Positions 5,169-7,169 of a DNA stretch of 35,807 nt are shown one piece after another. Position 1 is the stretch's first letter, and every line of letters begins with the position of its first letter. The notes beneath the pieces were generated by a model that worked only from the letters and a program-made list of their open reading frames with translations, was not told where the DNA came from and did no database searches. The DNA is from Cyanobacteria bacterium J069. Lineage in GTDB: Bacteria > Cyanobacteriota > Cyanobacteriia > Elainellales > Elainellaceae. The stretch lies in contig RFIF01000294.1 in NCBI GenBank assembly GCA_003695655.1, positions 1 through 35,807 of the forward strand. The letters are read 5' to 3'. A program made the position numbers and the translations under genes.

Positions 5169-5280
5169 GCAGTACGCTTGTTTTACCTGAGTGATCTGCC
5201 CGTATTGTACGTCAGAGACGCCATTCCGTTTTAGACTGGAGGATGCTCGGATAAATGTGCTGTTTTCAAAGAAGACACCT

Positions 5281-6006
5281 GTGCGCAAAAAGGTTATTGC
5301 TGGCAACTGGAAAATGTATAAAACCCAGTCAGAGGCTCAGGAGTTTCTGCAAGGGTTTTTGAAGCATCTGACGGAGACACCGGAGGATCGAGAAGTCGTT
5401 CTCTGTGTTCCTTATACCGATCTTTGGCTGCTGTCTAAAAACCTGCATGGAAGCCGAATTCGGCTGGGTGCGCAAAATATCCACTGGGCATCGGAAGGAG
5501 CCTATACTGGGGAGATCTCTGGCCCGATGCTGGCGGAAATTGGCGTGCGCTATGTAGTCGTGGGACATAGCGAACGCCGCCAGTACTTTGGCGAAACGGA
5601 CGACACAGTAAACCTGCGCCTCAAGGCGGCTCAAGAATTTGGGCTGACACCGATTCTCTGTGTGGGCGAAAGCAAGCAGCAGCGCACTACTGGGCAGACA
5701 GAGCCATTTATCTTTAACCAGCTTGAGAATGACCTGATTGAGGTTGATCAGTCTAACCTGGTGATAGCCTATGAGCCGATTTGGGCGATTGGCACGGGGG
5801 ATACCTGTGAGCCTGACGAAGCAAATCGTGTGATTGGCCTGATTCGCAAACAAATCGACAATCCCAATGTACCGATTCAATATGGTGGTTCTGTAAAACC
5901 TGACAACATTGATACCATCATGGCGCAGCCAGAGATTGACGGTGTTTTAGTGGGTGGGGCCAGCCTAGCGCCCGACAGCTTTGGGCGTATTGTAAACTTT
6001 CAGTAG
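5281..6006 (+). CDS. tpiA: triose-phosphate isomerase
   Basis: This enzyme interconverts dihydroxyacetone phosphate and glyceraldehyde 3-phosphate in glycolysis and the Calvin cycle (cytoplasm). It has 241 residues, normal for the family. The conserved N-terminus ([13 protein letters not shown]) sets the start at GTG 5281 rather than the ATG at 5191 in the ORF track; AAGAAG lies about 7 bases upstream. Active-site elements are intact: Asn and Lys of NWKMY, His of VVGHSERRQ, Glu of [13 protein letters not shown] (loop 6) and the phosphate-binding QYGGSV and GVLVGGASL. The gene ends 51 bases before a strong terminator and a MITE-like element. Confidence is very high. Confidence 0.97.
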
Positions 6007-6057: not shown

Positions 6058-6092
6058 AAAAGAGAGCCAGAATGTTGCTCTGGCTCTCTTTT
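6058..6092 (+). terminator. Rho-independent terminator of tpiA (possibly bidirectional)
   Basis: A 13-bp perfect stem, AAAAGAGAGCCAG paired with CTGGCTCTCTTTT, encloses a 9-base loop and ends in a T run on either strand. It lies 51 bases past the tpiA stop, and by symmetry it could also stop transcripts coming from the PEP-CTERM gene. Confidence 0.85.
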
Positions 6093-6112
6093 GTGCGATT
6101 GATCAACAGGGA

Positions 6113-6205
6113 GGGCGTTGCTGAATGACGCTATGATTTCGTCGGATTGAGGACAGAGTCTCAAGGCTTTCAGAAACTATTTCATAGACCGATTCAGCAA
6201 CGCCC
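6113..6205. mobile_element. 93-bp MITE-like element with inverted ends and 5-bp target duplication
   Basis: The element begins GGGCGTTGCTGAAT and ends with its exact complement ATTCAGCAACGCCC (14 bp perfect). After four mismatched bases the two ends match again for six (CTATGA), giving an imperfect inverted repeat of about 24 bp. It is flanked on both sides by AGGGA (6108-6112 and 6206-6210), a perfect 5-bp direct repeat as left by transposition. It contains no ORF, so it would need a transposase in trans. It sits between the tpiA terminator and the end of the PEP-CTERM gene, 13 bases from that stop codon, so its hairpin could act as the 3' end of that transcript. The parent IS family is not assigned. 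Confidence 0.8.
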
Positions 6206-6218
6206 AGGGAGTATTAAC

Positions 6219-7169
6219 CTACGCTGAAGCTTCTTGCTTCTTGCGACGGCGACGAGTATACATTAGACCAGCGGCGATCGCCGTTCCAGCCATTGTGGTG
6301 GGTTCGGGCACTGCTGTAGAACCTGCCATCACAATGCCGTCATTGCCGCACTCTGCAAACAGGCTCGCCATGAAGTTGCCGACTGGCAACAGGCTGCGAT
6401 CGACGCTGAAACCAAACGTGTAATTACCTGTGGCGCTAAAGTTGCCGAAGTTCAACCCCAGTGCCCTGAAATCAGCAGCTCCTAACATGTTGATGCCGCC
6501 CAGATAGCTGCCCGACTTCATGTTGGTTTGAGCGGCCGTGTTGTAAGCAAAGTAGGAGTTGTTTGCATCCAAATCGCCCAGAGAAGCAGAACCACCGACT
6601 TTCGCAACTTCGGTCGTATGCTGCTGGTGGCTGCTATAGCCAGAGTTGACGTTGGTGAGGCTGTTGGTCGTGACGCCGCCATACAGCCCCAGCGGGCTGG
6701 TTCGAGTGGTTTTGGTGACTTTTGCCCTGCCCCTGCTGTCAATCGTGCGAGTTTCGGTCACGACCTTTACGTTGGTGTCGTTGGTGCTGTCAAACCGGAT
6801 GGCAAACAGGCTGCTCTGAGCCGCGTCGAAGCTGGCAGTGTTGGTGAAGTTCAATACCAAATCGCCGTAGCTGATCTTCTTATTTCGGGCACCATCCAGA
6901 TCGTAACCATTCAGGGACAGATTCGAGTTGATCGCAAAGACCACACGATCTTCTAAAACACGGAAGGCCATGCCAAAGAACTCAAAGTCGCTGTTTTGCC
7001 CGACGACCAAACGCTTGTTGGTAGCATCCCACTCTGTTCCGTCGTTGAACGAGTCGATTGCGTAGTTCCAGCCACCAACCTGAAATGCTTGGGCTTGGGA
7101 ACCGGTCAATGCCAGAACGCCCAGCGTAGCAGCGGTGCAGAGAAGAGTTTTGAATGCTTGCAGTTTCAT
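6219..7169 (-). CDS. PEP-CTERM sorting domain protein (exosortase-dependent surface protein)
   Basis: This is a 316-residue exported protein. The N-terminus is a Sec signal peptide (LLCTAATLGVLALTGSQAQA) with likely cleavage after AQA near residue 28. The mature part starts FQVGGWNYAIDSFNDG and is rich in Asn, Ser and Thr. The C-terminus has the tripartite exosortase signal: VPEPTT at about 287-292, a short hydrophobic stretch (AGTAIAAGLMY) and a basic tail (TRRRRKKQ). The mature domain resembles cyanobacterial exosortase-dependent families named XDD; XDD3 is my best guess and is unverified. It should be exported, cut by the exosortase encoded at 1256-2176 and placed on the cell surface. Its function is unknown. 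A MITE-like element lies 13 bases downstream. Confidence 0.9.
   Translation of the reverse strand: MKLQAFKTLLCTAATLGVLALTGSQAQAFQVGGWNYAIDSFNDGTEWDATNKRLVVGQNSDFEFFGMAFRVLEDRVVFAINSNLSLNGYDLDGARNKKISYGDLVLNFTNTASFDAAQSSLFAIRFDSTNDTNVKVVTETRTIDSRGRAKVTKTTRTSPLGLYGGVTTNSLTNVNSGYSSHQQHTTEVAKVGGSASLGDLDANNSYFAYNTAAQTNMKSGSYLGGINMLGAADFRALGLNFGNFSATGNYTFGFSVDRSLLPVGNFMASLFAECGNDGIVMAGSTAVPEPTTMAGTAIAAGLMYTRRRRKKQEASA

Follow-up and report, generated by a model that had tools for sequence, protein, structure and literature searches.

A 91-bp cyanobacterial MITE with IS1-family ends in the 3′ UTR of a PEP-CTERM protein gene

Introduction

Between two convergent genes of Cyanobacteria bacterium J069 lies a short palindromic stretch that ends in inverted repeats and is flanked by a direct repeat. 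Is this a mobile element or a hairpin that belongs to the 3′ UTR of one of the genes and, if it is mobile, which transposase moved it? The window analysed here is the whole stretch of 35,807 nucleotides from contig RFIF01000294.1 of assembly GCA_003695655.1, a draft of 4.6 Mb in 626 contigs that is 85.8% complete. One of the two genes encodes a PEP-CTERM protein, the other an enzyme that we take from its motifs to be triose-phosphate isomerase (tpi). The features are listed in Table 1.

Table 1. Features at the insertion site, in coordinates of the window.
Feature	Position	Strand	Evidence
Triose-phosphate isomerase (tpi) gene, convergent neighbour	5191..6006	+	ORF
Terminator-like hairpin between the convergent genes	6058..6096	either strand	15-pair stem, A4/T4 flanks, −29 kcal/mol, z −6.2
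Target-site duplication, left copy, CAGGGAG	6107..6113	+	Single copy in same-genus relative
MITE	6114..6204	−	18 complete two-flank copies in the genome, 16 in one subfamily
Terminal inverted repeat GGCGTTGCTGAAT	6114..6126	+	Perfect inverted match of 6192-6204; IS1-family elements of relatives end likewise
Subterminal block CTATGA, inner matched arm	6131..6136	+	Pairs with 6182-6187
Subterminal block CTATGA, other arm	6182..6187	−	Pairs with 6131..6136
Terminal inverted repeat GGCGTTGCTGAAT	6192..6204	−	Partner of 6114..6126
Target-site duplication, right copy, CAGGGAG	6205..6211	+	Direct repeat flanking the MITE
PEP-CTERM protein gene, 3′ UTR holds the insertion	6219..7169	−	ORF with C-terminal VPEPTTMAGTAIAAGLMYTRRRRK; 88% identical orthologue in same-genus genome

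Results

Structure and boundaries of the element

The element comprises 91 bp and lies, in the orientation of its family, on the minus strand. Its terminal inverted repeats are perfect over 13 bp (GGCGTTGCTGAAT), and a second matched block, CTATGA/TCATAG, is found at columns 18-23 and 69-74; the extended ends read GGCGTTGCTGAATCGGTCTATGAAA and GGCGTTGCTGAATGACGCTATGATTTC. Across 18 family members, 92% of the cells in the subterminal arms are paired, and the ATGA of the CTATGA block has the same place in IS1-family ends. The order in the window is ...TGATCAA, CAGGGAG, GGCGTTGCTGAAT, 65 bp, ATTCAGCAACGCC, CAGGGAG, TATTAACC.... In other copies GGCGTTGC is preceded by any of the four bases. The ends proper are therefore GGCGTTGCTGAAT, with the 7-bp CAGGGAG as duplication. 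The element has no transposase gene; its longest open frame has 30 codons.

A sequence-only reading of the window had placed the element at 6113-6205, with perfect ends of 14 bp and AGGGA as a 5-bp direct repeat. It rightly saw a perfect inverted repeat and a flanking duplication, and its extension of the ends to about 24 bp agrees with the second block. However, one target base per side was counted into the element, so that the boundaries were one base out at each end and the duplication was too short and different in sequence. The distance to the stop codon of the PEP-CTERM gene (6219-6221), given there as 13 bases, is 14 bases.

Copies in the same genome

A BLAST search of the assembly with the 91-mer gave 26 matches. 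Eighteen of these are full 91-bp copies for which both flanks are present, namely the window copy and 17 others in unrelated surroundings, and the family thus has at least 18 copies in this genome. The main subfamily comprises 16 of them (pairwise identity 96.7-100%, mean 98.7%); the other two are identical to each other and about 88% like the main subfamily. Target duplications are perfect over 8 bp in 12 of the 18 and over 7 bp in two, the window copy and C477, while C182 has 6 bp, C475b has 8 bp with one mismatch (ACCTTACT/ACTTTACT) and two copies have none. There are also two longer variants, C322 (249 bp, with a perfect 8-bp duplication) and C407 (196 bp). The search for further copies of the end that the first reading had suggested thus found many. 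With the same 91 bp at 17 other complete sites in this genome, and 45 matches to the pattern versus three to the reversed pattern as control, the MITE is far above chance.

Most copies are intergenic. The copy in C350 lies within a gene that probably encodes a nucleotidyltransferase, and those in C182 and C475a are probable truncations close to the 3′ ends of genes; the names of genes around the copies are presumed from our reading of their sequences. A preference for convergent intergenic regions was considered and dropped, the numbers (about four convergent, six tandem and one divergent) being too small for such a claim. The right flank of one copy (L019, C118 from position 170 on) and the left flank of another (L028, C613 up to position 6809) have nine bases in common, GCATAAAAA, which would fit a single insertion whose two sides now lie apart, through either recombination between copies or a chimera in the assembly.

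An empty site in the same genus

The orthologue of the PEP-CTERM gene is present in G001, a complete genome of the same genus. Past the stop codon, G001 reads ...TTCCCTGTTGATGAA..., with a single CCCTG and without the element, and this aligns with the joined flanks of the window (CTCCCTGTTGATCAA) after removal of the element and one duplication. A comparison with a close relative had been proposed from the sequence, and the site in this relative is indeed empty. The 91-mer had no match anywhere in G001. Either the element inserted here and its copies multiplied after G001 had branched off, or G001 has lost the family; the empty site favours the first alternative. Many copies, an empty site in the same genus and, as described below, IS elements of relatives with the same ends bear out the earlier reading as a MITE: the element is a genuine one, a further example of an already known type of mobile element.

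Ends shared with IS1-family elements

Elements of the IS1 family are about 700-800 bp long, produce duplications of 8-9 bp and have a −1 frameshift that links two overlapping frames. A search for the IS1 transposase (PF03400) gave matches in 28 of the 36 genomes with family members. Four complete elements of relatives coincide with such matches and are flanked by perfect 8-bp duplications: L182 (754 bp, GAAATTGT), L183 (755 bp, TAGACGTA), L194 (744 bp, AGCAATAC) and L203 (754 bp, TGTTATAC). Their length and duplications are within the range of the IS1 family. One end of each is GGCGTTGCTGAATC, exactly or nearly, and the other is GGCGTTGCATAAT; ATGA is found about 20 bp in at either end. The first 23 bp of another element, L169 (754 bp), GGCGTTGCTGAATCAGTCTATGA, are identical to one end of the MITE copies in C102 and C248. 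The ORFs of L182, L169 and L104 scored 77-83 bits against DDE_Tnp_IS1 of Pfam (cut-off 24.1); two overlapping open frames are present in L182, L169, L173 and L203, a single frame in L104 and L168.

The MITE thus resembles cyanobacterial IS1-family elements in the GGCGTTGCTGAAT motif, in the ATGA about 20 bp in and in the 8-bp target duplications, but it has only 91 bp and no transposase. Moreover, it has two CTGAAT-type ends, whereas full-length IS1 elements usually combine one such end with one of the CATAAT type, and no single full-length IS among the elements found matches it at both ends and in the subterminal sequence. The duplication of the window copy itself, 7 bp and not 8 bp, is a counterpoint to the IS1 model. 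Full-length IS elements with the same ends, a search for which had also been suggested from the sequence, are present in relatives but not in this assembly. Here no intact IS1 transposase was found, the sole match being a fragment with stops, and the CATAAT-type end has only one exact match, at a degraded site. The copies therefore appear to be orphans, if the draft is not simply lacking the parent; with 626 contigs and 85.8% completeness, the absence of the transposase is no proof.

This absence would also fit mobilisation by another IS family whose ends begin with GGC.TTG.TGAAT, such as the IS903 group of IS5, which has similar ends. However, the transposase-bearing elements with these ends encode an IS1-type transposase, and the dominant 8-bp duplication fits IS1-type elements. 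The genome has only three matches to DDE_Tnp_1 (IS4/IS5-type), one of them beside a different end, CTAAGTACAGGACA. Another IS family is therefore a very unlikely source of the transposase. The IS4-like element with the CTAAGTACAGGACA end adjoins a MITE end in C189 and was considered as a partner, but its ends differ and it merely interrupts the copy (L029 340-476, C189:4839-4975). This end was found at about ten contig ends, which points to a multi-copy IS4-like element that fragments the assembly.

We are highly confident in reading the MITE as a 91-bp non-autonomous insertion with IS1-family ends that an IS1-type transposase would have moved. Its copies, target duplications, empty site and ends in common with IS1 elements are observed; mobilisation in trans, by a transposase since lost or absent from the draft assembly, is inferred.

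Distribution among Cyanobacteriia

The end, as GGCGTTGCTGAAT followed by C or G, is present in 194 of 390 sampled genomes of Cyanobacteriia, with up to 96 matches in one, and the reversed pattern is almost absent from the 390. A 4.9-Mb genome of the same family (G027) has 96 matches to GGCGTTGCTGAATS, a far larger expansion than in the genome of the window. The 91-bp lineage itself, with identities of 65-93% and mostly exactly 91 bp, was found in about seven GTDB families. Kaiparowitsia implicata has exact matches to one MITE end and copies with 8-bp duplications. A conjugative plasmid of Calothrix brevissima NIES-22 has an intergenic match (82% over 89 bp) with a degraded far end and no visible duplication. 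Phages and viral contigs gave no match to the MITE. The patchy distribution, together with the absence from the nearest relative, suggests that the lineage moved horizontally.

Other MITEs, of 112-208 bp, were seen in four further genomes (L116, L117, L118 and L121 in G285, G364, G367 and G337). They have the same end GGCGTTGCTGAATC, usually followed by AAGGTATGAA, perfect 8-bp duplications and unrelated interiors, so that several MITE families make independent use of this kind of IS1 end.

It is tempting to speculate that one lineage of IS1-dependent MITEs with a nearly fixed length persisted in, and moved between, about seven cyanobacterial families, its 91 bp perhaps being kept because the transposase complex imposes a limit or because insertion is then frame-neutral (91 + 8 = 99); we regard this scenario as unlikely.

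Tests for a function as RNA or protein

Rickettsia palindromic elements are in-frame peptide modules, and the 91-bp repeat might likewise be domesticated, either as an RNA element or as a peptide module that adds 33 codons (91 + 8 = 99 bp). Members 65-93% identical and mostly exactly 91 bp long in about seven families, and 19 of 22 members with an open frame +1, would be expected of such a selected repeat. However, the excess of open frames is not significant (P = 0.13): at least 19 of 22 members had frame +1 open in 13% of the runs of a tree-based simulation. The codon positions have no pattern that would fit the open frame. None of about 48 family copies is embedded in frame in a long ORF, and in most the frame is closed by a stop after no more than a few tens of codons. 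Nor is there covariation; the score for compensatory base changes, 0.125, compares with a mean of 0.131 after shuffling. The constant length was considered as a sign of selection and discarded, since variants of 79, 86, 90, 196 and 249 bp exist and the search favoured matches of the same length; that 91 + 8 equals 99 is noted as a coincidence to which we attach no meaning. Altogether, the covariation, frame and codon-position tests gave no sign of selection on the family as RNA or protein, and domestication is highly improbable. One possible short case of an in-frame copy was seen in G041 (L231 1425-1660), where frame +2 of a 91-bp copy is continuous with an SH3-like C-terminal stretch, QRDWVRLPNGGWISARYIEYL; this copy may be in frame within a short SH3-like remnant.

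Effect on the PEP-CTERM gene

The sequence-only reading had proposed that the element can fold into a 3′ hairpin for the PEP-CTERM mRNA. In the 3′ UTR the MITE folds with −32.5 kcal/mol (z −4.6), or −35 kcal/mol (z about −5.0) in a second figure, and this strong fold results from its long inverted repeats, as with any such insertion. A terminator scan gave no intrinsic terminator in the MITE, and no T-run follows the element. The separate terminator-like hairpin (Table 1), which was there before, lies 18 bp beyond the MITE and could serve both tpi and the PEP-CTERM gene; in G001, without the MITE, this place is taken by a GC-rich hairpin of its own, AAAGCCCCGCAATGCGGGGCTTTC. A terminator derived from the MITE is therefore not needed, and a required or evolved role as 3′ hairpin is unsupported. 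Rfam gave no match to the MITE; its only two matches, weak, below threshold and attributable to chance, fell on the neighbouring hairpin.

That the 91 bp are a conserved regulatory or terminator hairpin native to this intergenic region is scarcely credible: the strong fold and the position 14 bases past the stop codon would be in line with it, but the empty site in the same-genus relative refutes it, and the same 91 bp at 17 other complete sites, the lack of a T-run and of a scanned terminator, the separate hairpin nearby, the lack of an Rfam match and a covariation no higher than in shuffles are all against it. As a mobile insertion, the MITE is most likely a neutral extension of the PEP-CTERM 3′ UTR, and its effect at this locus is probably nil.

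Discussion

Nezha, a cyanobacterial MITE, reportedly has an ISNpu3-like element as parent. It resembles the MITE described here in being multi-copy and cyanobacterial (Zhou et al. 2008, as cited in PMC10969869). The MITE of Microcystis aeruginosa PCC 7806 is also mainly intergenic and forms a stem-loop, with tens of identical copies, but it has 187 bp and imperfect ends of 9 nt, which its authors assign to transposases of the ISL3 family (PMC11448079). The MITEs of Anabaena sp. 90 (77-541 bp; 132 intergenic, 15 interrupting ORFs) are alike in size range and placement, a likeness drawn from their description (PMC3542288). MITEs are thus already known in cyanobacteria (PMC3542288, PMC11448079, PMC10969869), and so are IS1-family elements, such as ISMae3 (PMC11448079). 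In the open literature, with ISfinder outside the search, we found no paper that prints this end or describes a cyanobacterial MITE derived from IS1. What is new here is the IS1-family parentage traced for an otherwise ordinary MITE.

According to our model, a DDE transposase of the IS1 type would bind in trans to the ends common to the MITE and IS1 elements, GGCGTTGCTGAAT together with the ATGA some 20 bp further inside, and would excise or copy the MITE and insert it with a target duplication of 7-9 bp, mostly 8 bp. The element has recently multiplied in this lineage to at least 18 copies. One of these entered the short 3′ UTR of the PEP-CTERM gene, between the stop codon and a terminator probably shared with tpi, where it is probably neutral.

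A very common repeat end of cyanobacteria, present in about half of the sampled genomes, is hereby tied to the IS1 family. Many unannotated intergenic hairpins of cyanobacteria should therefore become recognisable as IS1-derived MITEs, and would then not be mistaken for regulatory RNA or terminators.
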